This document shows, in pieces, positions 29,197 to 59,137 of a DNA stretch of 64,000 nucleotides. The DNA comes from Candidatus Oscillochloris fontis (lineage in GTDB: Bacteria; Chloroflexota; Chloroflexia; Chloroflexales; Chloroflexaceae). The DNA is taken from contig NZ_RYFD01000001.1 of the NCBI RefSeq assembly GCF_004138135.1, positions 124,001 through 188,000 on the forward strand, in the 5' to 3' direction. The translations under genes were made by a program, and so were the position numbers. Within the stretch, counting starts at the first letter, position 1, and every line of letters starts with the position of its first letter. A model generated the notes under the pieces. That model ran no database searches, was not told where the DNA came from, and saw only the letters and a list, made by a program, of their open reading frames with translations.

Positions 29197-29889
29197 CTAT
29201 TCAGGCTGAGTTACCAACTCGGTACCTGCCACCCACCCCTCACGGCCATCGCTGGCGCGAATATGCCACCAGGGGTAGCCGTCGTTATCAACTGGCCCAG
29301 CGAGAAGGGTCATCGAGGTTCCGGGCGATAAGCTATCAATGACGGTGGTTTGCAAGCCCGCCGCGCTACGCAAGCGCAGGTTCTTCCCGCCCTCCTTGCG
29401 CACATAGGCTGTGCGACCAACCGCCAACACATGCGGATCTTCGAGGGCAGCTTTACTCTCGTGGTCGCCCATAGCGCCTGGCTTGGCACCGCCCGCAGCC
29501 CCAGCGGCGGGGCCAGCCGGCTTGGCACCGCTTGCAGCACCCGCCGTCGGGCCAACCCGGCTCACGCCCACCGACCCAGCCGTTCCGGCTGATTTCCCGC
29601 CCGCAGGTGCTACCGCGCCACCCGCCGCTCTTCCGCTCGCAGCGTCGGGTTTAGACTTCATCTTCTCCATCTCCGTCTGGAGTTGTTTCAGTTGCGCCTG
29701 GGCCGCCGTAAGTGCCGTATTCGCCTGTGCGCTGACAGCGGCGTTATTTTTGGCCTCAATCAACTGGGCCTGAAGTTGCTGGATTGTTTTGGTCTGCTGC
29801 GCGATCTGCTCTTGCATCTGCGCCATCAACGCATCTTCTGCTTTTTCCCGCTCTTCCTCTTCCTTCTTCTTGTTACCGAAGCCGAACAT
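29197..29889 (-). CDS. Coiled-coil protein with bacterial SH3 domain
   Basis: The 230-residue protein starts with charged MFGFGNKKKEEEEREKAEDA and a coiled coil (about residues 10-80). An Ala/Gly/Pro-rich low-complexity linker (about 85-145) and a C-terminal SH3b-like domain (VRKEGGKNLRLRSAAGLQ ... YPWWHIRASDGREGWVAG) follow. SH3b domains often bind cell-wall peptides. There is no signal peptide, so its location is unclear and no function is assigned. Confidence 0.75.
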   Translation of the reverse strand: MFGFGNKKKEEEEREKAEDALMAQMQEQIAQQTKTIQQLQAQLIEAKNNAAVSAQANTALTAAQAQLKQLQTEMEKMKSKPDAASGRAAGGAVAPAGGKSAGTAGSVGVSRVGPTAGAASGAKPAGPAAGAAGGAKPGAMGDHESKAALEDPHVLAVGRTAYVRKEGGKNLRLRSAAGLQTTVIDSLSPGTSMTLLAGPVDNDGYPWWHIRASDGREGWVAGTELVTQPE

Positions 29890-30255
29890 AGGGATACTCC
29901 TTTGTATAGTGCGGATAACCTAAGGACAGTTGATGGTTGATACTAGGTCACCTAGTATCTGGCATCAGAGACCACACAGTAGTAATGGTATCACGCCGCA
30001 GAGGCTACGGCAACTAGTACTCTGGGCAGGGCAGGGCATGTGCAAAGTCCTTGGGGCTGCACCCCAAGCCCCATTTTTTGTGGTGTTTTGGCGGCGAAGC
30101 CGCCAAAACACCACAAAAAATTCTGCGGGGGCAGCGCAGCCGCTCCCGCACCCCCACCGGAGGTGACTTTGCACATGCCCTGGTCTTCTGGGTGCGATAG
30201 GGCATGTGCAGCGTAGGGGCGCAGCATTTGGCCCAGCGAACATCGCAGAGTCTCC
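29890..30255. other. Gene-free region with family A and E repeats
   Basis: No gene is seen. The region holds a small palindrome near 29941-29957 (ACTAGGTCACCTAGT), the full-length family A element at 30032-30182, a lone family A end (GGGCATGTGCA) at 30200-30210, and the left half of a family E element at 30213. Confidence 0.75.
30032..30182. mobile_element. Repeat family A, copy 3 (full-length, 151 bp)
   Basis: This is one of the two best copies. Its perfect 18-bp terminal inverted repeats are CAGGGCATGTGCAAAGTC at 30032-30049 and the complement at 30165-30182. Inside are three hairpins: CTTGGGG..CCCCAAG, a long central stem with T-run, TGTGGTGTTTTGGCGGC core and A-run, and TGCGGGGGC..GCTCCCGCA. 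There is no coding capacity for a transposase, so it looks like a miniature element moved in trans. Target-site duplications are not obvious. Confidence 0.9.
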
Positions 30256-30288
30256 CTATTCATGGGTGGCCAAATGGGTCGCCCCTAC
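30213..30288. repeat. Repeat family E, copy overlapping the cyclase 3' end
   Basis: GTAGGGGCGCAGCATTTGGCC on one side and GGCCAAATGGGTCGCCCCTAC on the other are imperfect inverted arms with a short spacer. The right arm is the coding end of the adenylate-cyclase gene, where it is read in frame as the last ten or so residues. Confidence 0.8.
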
Positions 30289-33200
30289 GGGTTGGGTCTG
30301 GGCCAAGGCAGTGAATCTCCGCGCCAGGGGGGAGGGCATCCCCATCTGTGCAGCGAGGTTGGCGGCGCGCTGCCAATAACGGCGTGCCCGTTGTTGCTGT
30401 CCGCGTAGCCACGCAGCGCGCCCACGCCACATCAGCACTGCCGGGCGTACCATCGGGAAGATACGTGCCAGTTGGCCTAGCATCCGGGTGATGCGGCGCA
30501 GCCGCCGTGGTTGGCGCTTGGTCGCCCAGAGTTCTAGCAAGACCTCGGCAAGTGCGACATAGCCTCCCAGTGCATAGATCGCGACCGGGGGATGTTCACC
30601 GACCAGATCATCAGCGGTATCGGCCAAGGTTTGCGCGAGAGGAGTATTGCCGCTGCGCCACGCGAGTTTGGCATGCAAACCATAGGCCCAGATCTCTTCA
30701 GCGCGGGTACTGCCCAGATTCTCGGCCAACAGGCCATTTGCTACTTCTAGTAAGGCCAGCGCTTGGGGATCAGCATCCTGTTGGATCAGGCACTCAGCCT
30801 GCCCGATCAGCCCCCAGGCACACACTTGCAGGTCGCCACGGGCTTGTGCTGCCGCATAGAGTTCGGCATAGCGCTCTTGGGCGGCATGGAGGTTGCCCTG
30901 AAGCAGATCCGCGAGTGCCAGCATCCCATGACACTCGGCGCGGCGGCGTTGATCGCCCAGATGTTCGGCTACCACCAGTGCGAGGTTGAGCGCCGCACTT
31001 GCGCGGCGCCAATCGGCGCGATCCATCGCGGCGATCCCTTGGGCCTCGTACACCCAGGCATAGGTGGGCAGGTGATTGATCTGGTGGGCGAGATCTAAGG
31101 CGCGCTGCTGGTACCGGCGGGCGAGGGGCGCGATAATGCCGGTGGCGAGGTGGGCCGAGGCATAGGCCGCCGCTAACTCCGGGGTCTCACCGCTGCGTTC
31201 GGCGAGGCTGAGGCTGCGCAGGGCGGCGCGGATGGCTTCGGGGAGTTGGCTGTTGTAGTAGCTGAGTTGGGCGAGCAGCATGGAGGTTCGCGCCGCTTCG
31301 CGCAGTAGCTCCGAATCTGGTTCGCGGCGCGGCGCAGGTAGGGGCAAGATGGTGCGCACTCCTTGGCGCACCAACAACCAACTCAGCCCCATCATGGTGC
31401 GCCGCAGATGCACCGGCAAGAGGCGGCTCAGATGCTCCTCGGCACGTTCGAGCAGATCGCGGCTCTCGTTCAAGCGGCCTAAGCCGTGGTACGCCTCGGC
31501 TAGTTGGCGTTCCCAGCGTACCCGTGTGATCAGATCGGGGGAACCGGCGGCATTGGCACCGCCGCCGCTGATCTGAATTGCCTCACGTAGAAAATTGCTC
31601 GCTTCCTGGTAGGCTCCCGCCGTGAGCGCCTGCTCGCCCGCCCGTGCTAGGTAGCCCATTGCCCGATCTGGCTCATCGGCTTGACGCCAATGGTAGGCGA
31701 GTTGTGCCGCGTCACCATCAGCCTCGTAATACTCCGCTATTGTACGGTGGAGTTGCCGCCGCTGACGGAAACTCATGAGGTTGTAGGCCACTTCGGCTAC
31801 GACGGCGTGGCGGAAGCTGTAGACTAGTTCGGGATCGAATTCCTCGATCAACACCAGACCCGCTTGTTGCAAGGTGAAGAGTTGCTCAACCAAGTGGTTG
31901 GGATCGTTCTCGACCGGATGGATGGCGCTGAGCGTCGAGAGTGCAAACGAACGCCCGATCACACTCGCCACCTTGAGTGTGAGTTGTTGCGCCGGGCTGA
32001 GTCGGTCAATGCGGCTGATGATCAAACCCTCAATGGTACTGGGTAAGGGCACTGCGTTGAGGATCTGGATCGGATCACCGGCGCGTGCCATTATCTGACA
32101 CTCGCGCCCAACTACAGTAATCAGGCCGTTTTGGCGTAGGGCGTGTAGTAGTTCTTCACTAAAGAAGGGGTTCCCCTGGGAGCGATCCGCAATCAGGTGC
32201 CAGATTGCGGTGGGTACCCGATCTACCCCTAGTCGTTGCGCCAGCAGATCATGAATCTGCGATGGCTCTAGCCCACTCAGATGAATGCGGCGTGTATCGG
32301 GCAGGTAGGCTAACCGCTGATATTCGGCGGGCGGATCGGAGAGCGGGCGGATCGCTATCGCCAATAACAAGCGCTCAACCCGTTCGGCTACTACCGCCAA
32401 GAGCGCCCACGAACTGGTATCGAGCCATTGTGCATCCTCGATCATAATGACTAACGGGTTGCGTTGGGTGGCGCGATCCAACAGCCGCACCAGCAGATCG
32501 CGGGTATTATCGGCGCGTACTTGGCCACTCATCTGCGCGGTGATCGTGGTTTCCGGGAGATCAACATGCAATACCGCCCGCAGCAGCGGTGCTAGGGGCA
32601 TCAGATCTTCCCCCAAGAGATCGGCGGGCCATTGCGCGGCATCATTGAGCAAGAGGCTACTAAAGACTGACCGCCATGCCCCATAGGGGGCGGCATCTAC
32701 CGAGCGCCCGATTCCGATCATGGCCTCGACCCCCGCTTGGCGTGCGGCATGTTCAAGCGTATGCAGGAGACGGGTCTTGCCGATGCCTTCATCACCTTCA
32801 AGAATCAGGGTCGCTCGCCGTCCATGGAGCGCCAGATTGTTCAGGAATCCATCTATTATGGCCAGTTCGCGGTTGCGTCCGATCAGCGTTCCCATATGTT
32901 GTAGTGGCTCGCGCACCATAGCGGGGAGCGCCAATGCCAGTGGGCGATAGACTACCATCGGCTCGCTGACTCCCTTGAGCCGTAGGGGGGCGAGGCGTTC
33001 AAAGCGTAGGACGTGGCGTGCCGCAGTCATGGTGGCGGTATCACACAAGATGGCCACGCCATTATTTGGATCGAGATGCGCCGCCGCCTGCATGAGCCGT
33101 GCCGAACGGTTTACCATCGAACCCATCATCGTATATTCGCGGCGCGCCTCGCCGCCCACCGCCCCACATAGGGCTTGGCCCGTCGTAATGCCTATCGCAC

Positions 33201-34248
33201 AACGGAAGCCCTGTTCGGCCAGCGCAGTATGAATATCCAGCGCTGCCCGTGCCCCGCGCTCCGGGTCGTCCTCGTGCGAGAAGGGCGGCAGACCGAGTGC
33301 TGCTACCAAGGTTGGCCCTTTGGCATCGGTGCCCAAGCGGCTAATACTCCCCTCGTAGCGGTAGAGCATAGATTGAATACTGCGCATCATCGCCTGCGCT
33401 TTGGGCAGCGGCGTTTCGGCTTGCAGATCGGGCAGATTGATAAAGAGCACCGTCACCCGGCGCTGCTCGGCCAACCATGCCGTCTGTCCGGCATCCATGC
33501 GCGCCAAGATCGCCTTGGGCAAATAGAAGCGCAATGAGTCGGCCATATCCATACGCAGCACGGGCACATCCAGCCCGCGCATGGGCAAATAATCGGTGAG
33601 CGAAACCAGCCGCACCCCACCGGTGGGCAGCGCTACGCCCATACAACTCTCGGCCACCAGTGGCCACGCCTCAGCGGCAATCACCACATCCCCCGGCTGG
33701 GCCTGGCTCTCCGCTAACCCGGTCTGACGGATAGGCTCGCCCGTTACCAATAACTCCCAGCGCCCAAAGATGCCCCCGACGTGCATTGTCGTCACCTGAC
33801 CAGCCCCGACCCCCACGCGGATTTTGAGCGGGGTAGTGGGGGTCTCAAAACTGCCCCACATCTCCGGCGACATCATCATCTGCACGGCGAGGCCACACTG
33901 CACGGCCCGTTGGGTTAGTTGGGCCAGATCCTCCTCGCCATACCAGAGCGCCAGCAAGCCATCACCCGCAAACTTCATCACATCCCCACCGTGGGCGGTT
34001 ACCACACGCACCAGATGGCCGAAGTAGAGGTCGAGGATCTGGGTCAGTTCTTCAGTACCAGCCGGGTTATGGAGGCTGAGTTGTTCGGTAAGTGCAGTAA
34101 AGCCAGTGAGATCAGCAAAGAGCGCCGCAGCGGGGAAGTGTTCTAGGGTTGGCGCCATCGTGAGTGCCACATCATGGTTCATCCGGCGCAGAATAAACGC
34201 CGGAAGATAGCTAGCCAGATCCGCAAGCGGTGCAGAGGAGGTTGGCAT
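30256..34248 (-). CDS. Soluble-adenylate-cyclase-like protein: two cyclase domains, AAA/STAND ATPase and TPR repeats
   Basis: The 1330-residue protein has the layout of animal soluble adenylate cyclase. The first class III cyclase domain (about 30-190) keeps both metal Asp motifs, LFADLTGFTALTEQL and MKFAGDGLLALWYG. The second domain (about 265-430) is degenerate at the first metal site (LFINLPDL) but has the GTDAKGPTLVAALGLPP stretch. A P-loop ATPase (EGDEGIGKTRLL) and many C-terminal TPR-like helices follow. It probably makes cAMP under control of the ATPase/TPR region. The final residues VGATHLATHE are encoded by a family E repeat. Confidence 0.9.
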   Translation of the reverse strand: MPTSSAPLADLASYLPAFILRRMNHDVALTMAPTLEHFPAAALFADLTGFTALTEQLSLHNPAGTEELTQILDLYFGHLVRVVTAHGGDVMKFAGDGLLALWYGEEDLAQLTQRAVQCGLAVQMMMSPEMWGSFETPTTPLKIRVGVGAGQVTTMHVGGIFGRWELLVTGEPIRQTGLAESQAQPGDVVIAAEAWPLVAESCMGVALPTGGVRLVSLTDYLPMRGLDVPVLRMDMADSLRFYLPKAILARMDAGQTAWLAEQRRVTVLFINLPDLQAETPLPKAQAMMRSIQSMLYRYEGSISRLGTDAKGPTLVAALGLPPFSHEDDPERGARAALDIHTALAEQGFRCAIGITTGQALCGAVGGEARREYTMMGSMVNRSARLMQAAAHLDPNNGVAILCDTATMTAARHVLRFERLAPLRLKGVSEPMVVYRPLALALPAMVREPLQHMGTLIGRNRELAIIDGFLNNLALHGRRATLILEGDEGIGKTRLLHTLEHAARQAGVEAMIGIGRSVDAAPYGAWRSVFSSLLLNDAAQWPADLLGEDLMPLAPLLRAVLHVDLPETTITAQMSGQVRADNTRDLLVRLLDRATQRNPLVIMIEDAQWLDTSSWALLAVVAERVERLLLAIAIRPLSDPPAEYQRLAYLPDTRRIHLSGLEPSQIHDLLAQRLGVDRVPTAIWHLIADRSQGNPFFSEELLHALRQNGLITVVGRECQIMARAGDPIQILNAVPLPSTIEGLIISRIDRLSPAQQLTLKVASVIGRSFALSTLSAIHPVENDPNHLVEQLFTLQQAGLVLIEEFDPELVYSFRHAVVAEVAYNLMSFRQRRQLHRTIAEYYEADGDAAQLAYHWRQADEPDRAMGYLARAGEQALTAGAYQEASNFLREAIQISGGGANAAGSPDLITRVRWERQLAEAYHGLGRLNESRDLLERAEEHLSRLLPVHLRRTMMGLSWLLVRQGVRTILPLPAPRREPDSELLREAARTSMLLAQLSYYNSQLPEAIRAALRSLSLAERSGETPELAAAYASAHLATGIIAPLARRYQQRALDLAHQINHLPTYAWVYEAQGIAAMDRADWRRASAALNLALVVAEHLGDQRRRAECHGMLALADLLQGNLHAAQERYAELYAAAQARGDLQVCAWGLIGQAECLIQQDADPQALALLEVANGLLAENLGSTRAEEIWAYGLHAKLAWRSGNTPLAQTLADTADDLVGEHPPVAIYALGGYVALAEVLLELWATKRQPRRLRRITRMLGQLARIFPMVRPAVLMWRGRAAWLRGQQQRARRYWQRAANLAAQMGMPSPLARRFTALAQTQPVGATHLATHE

Positions 34249-34258
34249 AGGTGATCTC

Positions 34259-34332
34259 GTAGGGGCGAAGCATCGCCCTCCATGTAGTTTGGGGAATACG
34301 AACTTGGTTGGAGGGCGATGCTTCGCCCCTAC
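34259..34332. repeat. Repeat family E, copy in the cyclase/sigma divergent gap
   Basis: GTAGGGGCGAAGCATCGCCC and GGGCGATGCTTCGCCCCTAC are 20-bp perfect inverted arms at the two ends of a 74-bp unit with a 34-bp unrelated centre. It lies between the start of the cyclase gene and the divergent sigma-factor gene. The same 73-74-bp unit is at 50820 and 59064. Confidence 0.9.
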
Positions 34333-37502: not shown

Positions 37503-38510
37503 ATGCCCGATCACCCAACGCTGGGTGAACCCGCCCATGATAGCTATGGTCGGCGGATTGATTACCTCCGAGTATCACTGACCGACCGCTGTAATATGCG
37601 GTGTGTCTACTGCATGCCCACTGTGGGCATGCAGTTTGTTCCTCGCCCCGAACTGCTCACCAACGCCGAACTCATATGCGTACTCCAGGCCGCCGCTGCG
37701 GTGGGCTTGCGTAAGATTCGCCTCACCGGCGGGGAGCCACTGCTGCGCCCTGGCTTGGTTGATCTGGTGCGAGCGATCAAGGCTATTCCTGGGATCGAAC
37801 AGATCGCCATGACCACCAATGCGCTGCGGTTGGACGAGTTGGCACTACCGCTGCGTCAAGCAGGGCTGGATCGGGTCAATATGAGTATTGACAGCCTCGA
37901 TCCGCACAAATTCCGCCGCATGACCGGTGGCGGGAGCCTTGATGAAGTTTGGGCGGGGGTGCGTGCCGCTGACGCTGCGGGCTTGCATCCGATCAAGCTG
38001 AATGCGGTGGTGGTGCGCGGTATGAATGATGATGAGGTGGTGCAACTCGCCGCCCTGACGCAGACCTACCCCTGGGAACTGCGCTTTATCGAGGTGATGC
38101 CGCTCACCGGGGTGGCTGGTCTGGCCGATGCGGGGGTGATCAGTAGCGCCGAGTTGATCACGCGGGTTGAGTCCCACTTCGGCCCGCTCGAACTGCTCAG
38201 CCACGACCCCCACGATCCCGCACGTTGCTATCGTATCCCTGGTGCAGCGGGCCAGATTGGGTTTATTAGTGCGGTTACCGATCCCTTCTGTGCCACCTGT
38301 AACCGCATGCGTCTGACTGCCGAAGGTCGCTTGCACCTCTGCCTGCTGCGCGATGATGAGGTTGATCTGCGGGCGGCGGTGCGGGGTGGCGCGAGCCAAG
38401 CCGAGTTGGCCCAGATCATCCGCGACGCTGTCAGCGCAAAGCCATGGGGCCACGGCTTGCCCGATGGGGTGCGCCCAACCTTGCGGGGGATGTCGCAGAT
38501 TGGGGGGTAG
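37503..38510 (+). CDS. moaA: GTP 3',8-cyclase (molybdenum cofactor synthesis)
   Basis: MoaA is the radical-SAM enzyme that starts molybdopterin synthesis from GTP. The 335-residue chain has the N-terminal cluster motif CNMRCVYC, the SAM-binding GGEPLL, and the C-terminal cluster CATCNRMRLTAEGRLHLC. It ends in Gly-Gly, the conserved tail needed for activity in this family. No other moa gene is in the window. It is probably co-transcribed with mrp (AGGAG just before the ATG). Confidence 0.96.
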   Translation: MPDHPTLGEPAHDSYGRRIDYLRVSLTDRCNMRCVYCMPTVGMQFVPRPELLTNAELICVLQAAAAVGLRKIRLTGGEPLLRPGLVDLVRAIKAIPGIEQIAMTTNALRLDELALPLRQAGLDRVNMSIDSLDPHKFRRMTGGGSLDEVWAGVRAADAAGLHPIKLNAVVVRGMNDDEVVQLAALTQTYPWELRFIEVMPLTGVAGLADAGVISSAELITRVESHFGPLELLSHDPHDPARCYRIPGAAGQIGFISAVTDPFCATCNRMRLTAEGRLHLCLLRDDEVDLRAAVRGGASQAELAQIIRDAVSAKPWGHGLPDGVRPTLRGMSQIGG

Positions 38511-44699: not shown

Positions 44700-44867
44700 A
44701 ACAACCGGAATAATCTGCGTAATCTGCGCAATCTGCGGATACATAACGCGGAGGCGCATCACGACGCGCCCCTCCGCGTTCTCGGCGATGAACAACCGGA
44801 ATAATCTGCGCAATCTGCGCAATCTGCGGATACATAACGCGGAGGCGCATCACGACGCGCCCCTACC
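44700..44867. repeat. Two tandem direct repeats of about 77 bp ending in family F right arm
   Basis: Two copies (44700-44776 and 44791-44867) share ACAACCGGAATAATCTGCG, then AATCTGCGGATACATAACGC and a right arm GGCGCATCACGACGCGCCCC. A third copy is at 40619-40685. The last CTAC supplies the stop codon of the M32 carboxypeptidase gene on the minus strand. Confidence 0.8.
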
Positions 44868-46371
44868 CGATCTGATACATCGCCCCGTACTTCTTGCGCA
44901 GGTACGCCATATACGGGCCAATGTCCAGCGGCCCGCCAGTGGTGCGCTGGAGCAGTTCGTCGGTGGTGAACTTGCTGCCATGCGTGTAGATCTGCCGCTG
45001 CAACCAACCATGCAGCGTCCCAAACTCACCCTGGCTGATCTCCGACTCAATCGTGGGCTGGGCGGCGCAGGCCGCCGCAAAGAACTGCGCACTCATGATG
45101 TTGCCCAACGTATAGCCCTGGAATGCCCCACCGATTGGCCCACTAAACCAGTGGACATCCTGAAGTACCCCGTTGCTGTCGTTGGGCGGGGTAATGCCCA
45201 GATCCTCGCGGTAGCGTGTGTTCCACGCCTCTGGCAGATCCTTCACCTCCAGGCTACCCTCTAGCAACGCCAGTTCCAGATCGAAGCGAATCATCACGTG
45301 CAGGTTGTAGGTCACTTCATCCGAATCGGTGCGGATGAGCGAGCGCTGCACCTTGTTGATCGCCCGGTAGAAGGTGTCGAGCGGGGTATCGGCAAGCTGC
45401 GCGGGGAAGGCCGCCTGCAACTGCGGGTAGTAGAACTCCCACATACTGCGCGAGCGCCCCACTAGGTTCTCCCACAACCGCGATTGGCTCTCGTGGACAC
45501 CCGCTGAGGTGCCGTTAGCCAACGGGGTGCCCTCGAAGGTGCGCTTGATGCCCTGCTCGTACATGGCATGCCCCGACTCGTGCAGCGTGCTGAACAGGCC
45601 GTCGCTCAGATCATGCTCGTTGTAGCGCGTGGTGATGCGCACATCCCCCAACGAGAACTTGGTCATGAAGGGGTGGTGGGTCAGATCCTGACGCCCGCGC
45701 TCAAAGTCATAGCCAAAGGCGCGGATGATCTGCTCACCAAATGCCTTCTGCTGCGCCGCTGGGTAGTGGCGGTGCAGACAGACATCATTGGCCGGAGCCT
45801 GCGCGGTAATCGCCTGCACCAGTGGCACCAGTTCCGCCCGCAACTGGGTAAAGATCGCTCGCACTGTCTCAGCACGCATGCCATAGTCGCTCATATCAAT
45901 CAGCGGATCGGCGATGTGCTGATAACCAGGGAAACAGTTGGCAATCCGGCGACTCAGATCGAGTGTGCGCTCCAGCAGCGGGCGCACAGCAGCAAAATCG
46001 TTCGCCGGGCGGGCGCGTGTCCAGGCATCGTAACTGGCCGCACTATGCGCCAACATCTCGCCGATCAGATCCTCAGGAATGCGCACCTGCTGCTCGTAGG
46101 TACGCCGTGCCACCCGAATCAGCGCCGCGTCATCCGCGTCGGCGTCGAGGCTCTCCGCATAGGGCTGCAAATCCTCCAACAACGCCCCGATCTCCTCGTC
46201 GGTGGCTTTCTGGTGGGCGATCCGCCCGATAGTCGCCATCTGCCGCCCGCGTGCCTCAGCGCCGCCCGCAGGCATATAGGTGCTCTGGTCCCACCCCAAG
46301 AGCGCTCCGACCATTTGCAGATCGAAGACTTCGCCTAACCGCCGTTTGAGTTCCTCTAACTGCTGCTCCAT
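44863..46371 (-). CDS. Metallocarboxypeptidase, family M32 (Taq type)
   Basis: The 502-residue enzyme has the zinc site HESGH in STLHESGHAMYEQG, the DPLIDMSDYGM region, and the late SAGVHESQSRLWENLVGRS and GYTLGNIMSAQFF of family M32. It removes C-terminal residues from peptides in the cytoplasm. The length is normal for the family. The TAG stop is formed by the repeat that follows it. Confidence 0.95.
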   Translation of the reverse strand: MEQQLEELKRRLGEVFDLQMVGALLGWDQSTYMPAGGAEARGRQMATIGRIAHQKATDEEIGALLEDLQPYAESLDADADDAALIRVARRTYEQQVRIPEDLIGEMLAHSAASYDAWTRARPANDFAAVRPLLERTLDLSRRIANCFPGYQHIADPLIDMSDYGMRAETVRAIFTQLRAELVPLVQAITAQAPANDVCLHRHYPAAQQKAFGEQIIRAFGYDFERGRQDLTHHPFMTKFSLGDVRITTRYNEHDLSDGLFSTLHESGHAMYEQGIKRTFEGTPLANGTSAGVHESQSRLWENLVGRSRSMWEFYYPQLQAAFPAQLADTPLDTFYRAINKVQRSLIRTDSDEVTYNLHVMIRFDLELALLEGSLEVKDLPEAWNTRYREDLGITPPNDSNGVLQDVHWFSGPIGGAFQGYTLGNIMSAQFFAAACAAQPTIESEISQGEFGTLHGWLQRQIYTHGSKFTTDELLQRTTGGPLDIGPYMAYLRKKYGAMYQIG

Positions 46372-58116: not shown

Positions 58117-59067
58117 GTGGAACAGATCTTCGCTGACTGGCGTTCATTGATGGTCGGTATCCAACTCTGGCTAGAGGGGGCCAACCCGTATGCCAGTTAC
58201 CCCCACCCGGTCTTTCCGGGCCGTATGGTGAATGCGGGGTGGTACGCCTACCCACCACCAACCCTGTTTCTCTTTACACCCCTGGCGCTGCTCCCCTGGC
58301 CGCTGAGTAGCGCCATATTGCTTTTGGCCTCGATCATCCCCTTTGAACGTTGGACTCGCCAGACGAGCTTACGTACCGGGTTGCCCTGGCTCTTGCTCTG
58401 GCTGCCCTTGGCCCAGGGGCTTTGGATCGGTCAGACGACGCTGCTCGCACTCGTGGCGCTACTCTGGGGCGAACGTGCTGCCCACGAACGCCAGGATGTG
58501 CGTGCGGCGTTCTTACTCGCGCTGGCGCTGCTTAAACCGCAGATTGGGATCGTGCCCATCGCCTGGCTGCTGCTCGAAGCGCTCTGGCAGCGCCGCTGGC
58601 GTCTGCCCCTCGCCTTCACGCTGATCAACCTCGTGTTGTGGGGTGGGACGGCGCTGCTGGCTGGGCCGCAGATCTACGTGCAGTGGCTCGGTGGCCTCAT
58701 GAACTACGACCAGTTCTTACCCAATCGCCCGCTGCTCTTTCCGCCCTTCGGCATGATCCTGGGCGCACTCGCGGTCTTCTTCTGGTACCGCCATGGGCGT
58801 GGCGATATGTTTGGCCTCGCGCTACTCTTCAACACCCTGATCTACCCACTCTCGGTTGTCTATAGCGCCAGTGCGCTCGCCATGGTCGTCATCCGCTGGA
58901 ATCCGCGCTGGCCCTGGTACCCACTCATCCTCAGTTGGCTCATCCCGATGCTCGTCCCACTCGCCCAGCGCACCCCCGACAGCATCGCCGGGATGACCCA
59001 AGCGATTATTGCGACTGCGCTGCTCACCGCGCTACTGCCCCAACTGCCAGGACAGCAGCGCAAGTAG
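58117..59067 (+). CDS. DUF2029/GT87-like membrane glycosyltransferase, perhaps N-truncated
   Basis: The 316-residue protein has about eight hydrophobic helices and the family sequence DWRSLMVGIQLWLEGANPYAS ... YAYPPPTLFLFTPLALLPW near the N-terminus. GT87 proteins are usually about 400 residues and have one membrane helix before this motif. Here the first helix is missing and a repeat lies directly upstream, so the gene may be shortened. It starts with GTG and lacks a strong ribosome-binding site. The TAG stop belongs to a family E repeat. Confidence 0.75.
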   Translation: MEQIFADWRSLMVGIQLWLEGANPYASYPHPVFPGRMVNAGWYAYPPPTLFLFTPLALLPWPLSSAILLLASIIPFERWTRQTSLRTGLPWLLLWLPLAQGLWIGQTTLLALVALLWGERAAHERQDVRAAFLLALALLKPQIGIVPIAWLLLEALWQRRWRLPLAFTLINLVLWGGTALLAGPQIYVQWLGGLMNYDQFLPNRPLLFPPFGMILGALAVFFWYRHGRGDMFGLALLFNTLIYPLSVVYSASALAMVVIRWNPRWPWYPLILSWLIPMLVPLAQRTPDSIAGMTQAIIATALLTALLPQLPGQQRK

Positions 59068-59137
59068 GGGCGAAGCATCGCCCGTCAGTGTAGTGCAGGT
59101 TTCCCTGGTTTCATGAAGGGCGACGCTTCGCCCCTAC
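59064..59137. repeat. Repeat family E, 74-bp unit at the end of the GT87-like gene
   Basis: GTAGGGGCGAAGCATCGCCC and GGGCGACGCTTCGCCCCTAC are the arms. TAG at 59065-59067 is the stop codon of the GT87-like gene. Confidence 0.9.

Follow-up and report, generated by a model that had tools for sequence, protein, structure and literature searches.

According to excerpts of Di Nocera, De Gregorio and Rocco (2013; PMC3733652), GTAG-REPs form head-to-head (HH) dimers with an outer GTAG at both ends, inverted arms, and a high copy number, and most GTAG-REP dimers are 20-100 bp apart. The same excerpts place them often near gene 3′ ends, with border TAGs serving as stop codons, describe some copies that code for residues, the COOH end included, and name Chloroflexi among the hosts of GTAG repeats. 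They also describe the Rickettsia palindromic elements (RPEs), palindromic repeats that are read in frame as protein. Excerpts of Corneloup 2021 (PMC8266576) present GTAG as part of the element recognised by the transposase, and REPs near stops were counted in E. coli in the excerpted text of a 2025 REP survey (PMC12306157). RAYT, or TnpA-REP, transposases have a Y1_Tnp domain and an HFH motif, and their genes stand beside clusters of putative repeats. RPEs lie mostly inside proteins, with the remainder of the protein kept, and T. roseum is reportedly one of the Chloroflexi that carry GTAG repeats.

Here we describe a locus at which an element of this kind appears to stand in place of a protein end. 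The window, i.e., the whole stretch of 64,000 nucleotides that was analysed (C1:124001-188000; the draft genome comprises 139 contigs and 4.46 Mb), contains a gene for a class III cyclase with an AAA domain, and a GTAG-ended inverted repeat overlaps the 3′ end of this gene (Table 1). Both domains score above their gathering cut-offs (Guanylate_cyc PF00211, 51.8 bits against 21.9; AAA_16 PF13191, 62.9 bits against 32.6), while TPR_12 stays below its own (26 bits against 30.1). The protein also matches TIGR03903 (TOMM system kinase/cyclase fusion) weakly, at 130 bits against a cut-off of 705.75.

Table 1. Coordinates of the features discussed, in window positions unless a contig is named
Feature	Position	Strand	Details
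SH3_3 domain protein	29197-29889	minus	next gene downstream of the cyclase
Other inverted-repeat element	30034-30180		147 bp; ends GGGCATGTGCA...TGCACATGCCC; downstream of the cyclase stop
GTAG-ended inverted repeat	30213-30288	none	76 bp; head-to-head, REP-dimer-like, body diverged
Left arm	about 30213-30234	plus	GTAGGGGCGCAGCATTTGGCCC
Right arm	about 30267-30288	minus	minus-strand reading gives VGATHLA of the cyclase end
Repeat-coded C-terminus	30256-30288	minus	VGATHLATHE and TAG; stop at 30256-30258, within the spacer
Cyclase gene	30256-34248	minus	1330 aa; Guanylate_cyc (41-194), AAA_16 (455-626); C-terminal part all-helical in the model
C-terminal peptide of the cyclase			predicted, ...TALAQTQPVGATHLATHE
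Second GTAG dimer	34259-34332		consensus-like; upstream of the cyclase, 10 bp from its start codon
GTAG dimer in the usual arrangement	59064-59137		border TAG is the stop of gene 58117-59067 (plus)
RAYT-like gene	G000:C6, about 31,234-31,755		173 aa; HFH motif

The repeat at the cyclase end runs from GTAGGGGCG to CGCCCCTAC, with GTAG at the outer end of both units, and is an HH inverted dimer with pairing arms. Taken as 30212-30233 and 30268-30289, these arms are 86% complementary with 34 nt between them, and the element folds better than shuffled sequences do (z of -6.0 and -5.5 on the two strands; 0 of 200 shuffles fold as well). Its folding energy is -22.5 kcal/mol, and four other copies in the window fold more strongly (-27.7 to -33.8 kcal/mol). 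Eighteen of 24 arm positions pair, a value held by two copies and the lowest among the 57 dimers of the sample described below (range, 18-24). Neither unit has a stem-loop of its own beside GTAG (the perfect stems measure 4 and 3), so we call the element REP-like or degenerate rather than a canonical REP. Its exact body, GGGGCGACCCATTTGG, has one match in six same-genus genomes, namely itself, and this, together with the weak single-unit hairpins, suggests that it may be an old or recombined copy. Rfam returned nothing at gathering score across 29800-30500. A fragment at 30199-30210 lies beside the repeat and was noted with the GGGCATGTGCA-ended element, whose GGGCATGTGCA...TGCACATGCCC pairs number seven in the 1.09-Mb sample. 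The cyclase gene as a whole is bracketed by two GTAG repeats, and 9 of the 57 sample dimers have a called start no more than 30 bp away.

The original prediction held that the repeat encodes the C-terminus of the cyclase, and the minus-strand frame, ...TQP-VGATHLATHE-TAG, confirmed both the reading and the repeat. The codons are GTA GGG GCG ACC CAT TTG GCC ACC CAT GAA TAG. The right arm, credited in that prediction with all of VGATHLATHE before the TAG, supplies VGATHLA, whereas THE and the stop derive from the spacer.

A search for the pattern GTAGGGGC-N44-74-GCCCCTAC found 149 pairs in the 4.46-Mb genome and 0 when the pattern was read backwards; chance is therefore excluded for the element, and the family has the high genomic copy number of a GTAG-REP. 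Five same-genus genomes held 1, 12, 13, 13, and 9 pairs (0, 0, 1, 1, and 0 in the backward control), and 16 of the 41 genomes searched, our own included, had any match to the pattern. Among the 50 of 149 copies that were listed, most carry the unit GTAG-GGGCGA-AGCA-TCGCCC at one or both ends. GTAG stands before hairpins 108 times against 35.1 expected, with seven other tetramers among those listed at 0.5-1.7 times expectation. Individual dimers and gene ends were scored in a sample of 1.09 Mb (~24% of the genome), which took in contigs C1, C34, C15, C22, C2, C3, and C8 whole, C6, C9, C12, and C14 nearly so, and short pieces of six others; these contigs were chosen where a first listing showed elements, and the 829 genes of the sample come from a dicodon scorer rather than a curated annotation. 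A perfect stem of at least 6 occurs in both halves of 29 of the 57 sample dimers, in one half of 22, and in neither half of 6, one of which is the cyclase-end copy. A RAYT-like protein is encoded on C6, and it matches Pfam Y1_Tnp at 29.3 bits (cut-off 23) and NF047646, the NCBIfam model for REP-associated tyrosine transposases, at 61.8 bits, below the cut-off of 80. Copies of GTAGGGGCG at C6 30,047-31,125 adjoin its gene and cluster on one side of it, and part of this cluster before the gene (locus L009) reads N. The contrast between 149 pairs here and 1-13 in relatives, with a RAYT-like gene by a repeat cluster, fits a lineage-specific expansion of GTAG-REP dimers, and on sequence grounds this appears to be a GTAG-REP family, its putative transposase gene included, that has multiplied in the lineage.

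To compare the end of the cyclase with those of its relatives, we searched 61 genomes, our own among them, for homologues; 57 had a match, and 3′ ends were examined at 20 loci besides that of the window. Four loci at which no stop was seen (L016, L018, L028, and L030) were left out of the end alignment, as were three (L013 and L014, both from same-genus genomes, and L017) whose stops fall around query residue 916-923. Of the 13 aligned loci, four (L020-L023) stop short of the junction between native sequence and repeat and have short, unrelated tails; the other nine extend that far. Eight of these nine have 25-39 residues past the junction column, in a pattern like GRH...HLxQAxxxF..., against 10 in the window protein; the ninth, L025, has 2 residues and no repeat. 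Neither VGATHLATHE nor VGATH occurs in any of the nine, so that no repeat-free homologue among them shares the C-terminal residues. This agrees with the original prediction, which had also asked whether orthologues end before the repeat-coded residues and spoken of a repeat that extends or replaces a protein end; with eight of nine homologues running on past that point, only replacement survives, and with shortening. These comparisons indicate that the native end of the cyclase was replaced by a shorter one, not extended. They also suggest that the C-terminal part is variable in this cyclase family and that the longer tail is the commonest state among the homologues that reach the junction. 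In G003 (L014), where the sister cyclase stops close to residue 923, a GC-rich palindrome of another kind follows the stop directly.

AlphaFold models of the last 330 residues, built from the same ten sequences in two orders, bear on what occupies this place in relatives. The model of the sister protein from genome G001 has confident helices at 296-312 and 316-327 (pLDDT in blocks of 10 from residue 291: 95, 98, 96, and 86), and in the model of the window protein residues 323-330 of the fragment have pLDDT below 50. By these models, the element stands where a folded helix pair is missing. We looked for a remnant of the severed tail by tblastn in the 1.4 kb around and beyond the stop, where nothing convincing appeared (best E, 0.052), and the two genes downstream of the cyclase were not found in the 1.1-2.9 kb beyond its homologues at L011, L012, L015, L019, and L059. 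Simple insertion alone is therefore insufficient, and deletion or rearrangement at the repeats seems more likely than a clean insertion.

We suggest the following course of events, which we hold to be probable as a whole. A short head-to-head GTAG-REP-like dimer, probably moved by a single-strand (RAYT-type) transposase, would have come to lie within the 3′ end of the cyclase gene or close to it, and deletion or rearrangement at the site would have removed the native tail; the deletion step and the order of these events are read back from the present arrangement. Because the outer GTAG fell in the frame GTA GGG GCG (VGA...), the border TAG would not be read as a stop, and translation would continue for 30 nt into the element, to the TAG in the spacer, adding the tail VGATHLATHE. 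The shortened cyclase would have been tolerated, presumably since the C-terminal part varies in the family.

The tail may instead have gone first, by deletion or a stop mutation, with the element later capping a gene that was already short. L025 ends near the same place without tail or repeat, early stops occur at L013, L014, and L017, the orthologues in G003 and G005 end at about residue 923, and the AQTQP before the junction is already unlike the nearly invariant RH of the homologues. Loss before insertion nevertheless needs a coincidence, in that homology stops within a few residues of the element border, and we regard this order as unlikely. We thus retain the landing of the dimer together with deletion or rearrangement as the preferred account.

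How exceptional the cyclase is depends on where other copies landed. The window contains 15 GTAGGGGC tails (7 plus, 8 minus). The border TAG is a gene stop for two of them (58117-59067, plus; 44863-46371, minus), another shares a single base with the stop of gene 37503-38510, one is that of the cyclase, and none of the remainder lies within a called same-strand gene. The statement of the original prediction that other copies stop translation at once at the border TAG thus holds only in part inside the window, but it does hold as a rule in the 24% sample. There, 241 GTAGGGGC tails provided a same-strand stop through the border TAG in 26 cases, were read in the VGA frame in 2, and in the third frame in 0. 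Not included in this 26:2:0 count are three genes whose stop shares one base with the border, nine phase-0 and two phase-1 genes whose frames run on for hundreds of bases at least, and 199 tails outside any same-strand gene; of these 199, 25 lie no more than 40 bp past a stop.

The search for further repeat-coded C-termini, covering the same 24% of the genome, was rewarded with one more: besides the cyclase, the VGA frame is used by C9:40470-41735, which ends in FEQVY-VGAKHRLL* and whose product reads as glycosyltransferase-like. Seven orthologues have other tails, 4-14 residues long, which suggests a variable end at the position that the repeat now occupies. The apparent VGA tail of a glycosyltransferase-like gene in G003 (L215) was rejected, since the sequence proved to be GTGGGGGCACAGG rather than a REP.

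A second GTAG family, GTAGAGACGCAA...TTGCGTCTC, occurs on G000:C1, C9, C15, C34, and other contigs. Its GTAGAGACG tails (n = 66) supplied TAG stops in 22 cases, against one phase-0 gene ending inside the element and one phase-1 gene ending 137 nt on; two further phase-0 genes read on. For GTAGCG[ATC]CG taken without a hairpin filter (n = 70), the counts were 10 TAG stops, 0 phase-0 and 1 phase-1 genes ending inside, and 19 reading on. A rough string control, GTAGGG[ACT] (n = 305), was also skewed, with 14 TAG stops against 3 phase-0 ends, because a stop is possible only in that phase, and the count was therefore repeated on genuine elements. Among intact dimers, 114 ends gave 10 TAG stops, 2 VGA frames, and 0 in the third frame, with 2 one-base overlaps and 1 gene reading on. 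We place no weight on binomial values for the frames, which presuppose that copies are independent and frames equal, and retention of TAG by selection could bias searches for intact GTAG; bodies taken with any preceding tetramer (n = 289) gave 20 TAG stops, 1 VGA frame, and 1 end shifted by one base (C12), with 2 one-base overlaps and 9 genes reading on, and AGACG bodies (n = 54) gave 13 TAG stops and 0 in other frames. With 26:2:0 in one family and 22:1:1 in a second, REP dimers may serve as movable stop codons on which the landing frame acts as a filter, where landings at coding ends would be kept almost only if the element's own TAG is in frame, and the cyclase would be one of the few escapes, at the cost of its tail; we put the chances of this reading at about even. 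If it is true, mobile repeats now determine where a noticeable share of this genome's genes end.

The border TAG could also be older than the element. Were GTAG at gene ends a native stop and a target for the hairpin, the cyclase would be a case in which the hairpin entered an internal GTAG. More of the sample's called genes end in TAG (379 of 829) than in either other stop, and an excess of G before TAG favours such targeting: G precedes 227 of 379 TAG stops, whereas the figures are 80 of 234 in TAA-ended and 59 of 216 in TGA-ended genes. Background explains part of this excess, however, since 34% of intergenic and 45% of intragenic TAG triplets likewise have G before them. A REP-like string follows 57 of the 227 GTAG-type stops (68 with a looser string). 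We then turned to orthologues from the five same-genus genomes, accepted at 50% identity or more, using 11 of the 38 genes with a perfect hairpin directly after the stop and, as controls, 6 of the 314 genes that end in TAA or TGA. Within five codons of the same place end 37 of the 45 orthologues of REP-stopped genes, the other 8 running longer, and 27 of the 29 control orthologues. GTAG stands at the stop in 8 of 45 against 9 of 29 in the controls, a comparison of low power because the relatives are distant and stop codons drift. These results argue that the element most likely brings the border TAG with it and that most REP-stopped genes lost little, the cyclase being the exception in having apparently lost a folded tail. 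The excerpts of Corneloup 2021 (PMC8266576), in which GTAG belongs to the element, likewise speak against a native target, an explanation that we find improbable. Least credible of all, to the point that we set it aside, is recruitment of the repeat-coded tail for a function, e.g., as a regulatory peptide or a signal for degradation. Ten codons are open in the frame, and one other protein ends in a VGA-coded tail (VGAKHRLL*), but only two genes in the sampled 24% of the genome have one, the two diverge after VGA, and residues 323-330 of the modelled cyclase fragment fall below pLDDT 50.

Our preferred account, a GTAG-REP-like dimer that landed with deletion or rearrangement and is read through in the VGA frame, makes the cyclase a fresh example and not a new system, as REP-supplied stops and REP-coded residues both appear in the excerpts of Di Nocera 2013 (PMC3733652). 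Titles and abstract starts among the matches listed for open-licence PMC literature held no report of this family in Oscillochloris. What the cyclase adds is a case where, judged by orthologues, a published kind of repeat stands in place of a folded tail. The landing-frame count is the most useful addition; although drawn from part of one genome, the counts of repeat-supplied stops and repeat-coded tails make landing-frame selection testable in strain collections. The unit here, GTAGGGGCGAAGCATCGCCC, is likened to the GTAG-REPs of Di Nocera by general features and not by a match to their 24 families, and the cyclase-end copy differs from their HH dimers in its weak single-unit hairpins. A further difference from the excerpted GTAG-REP work (PMC3733652) is that we count landing frames and a native tail that was lost. 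The candidate transposase shares domain, motif, and gene position with RAYTs but scores below the NCBIfam cut-off. Finally, unlike the RPEs, the element at this locus ends the protein.
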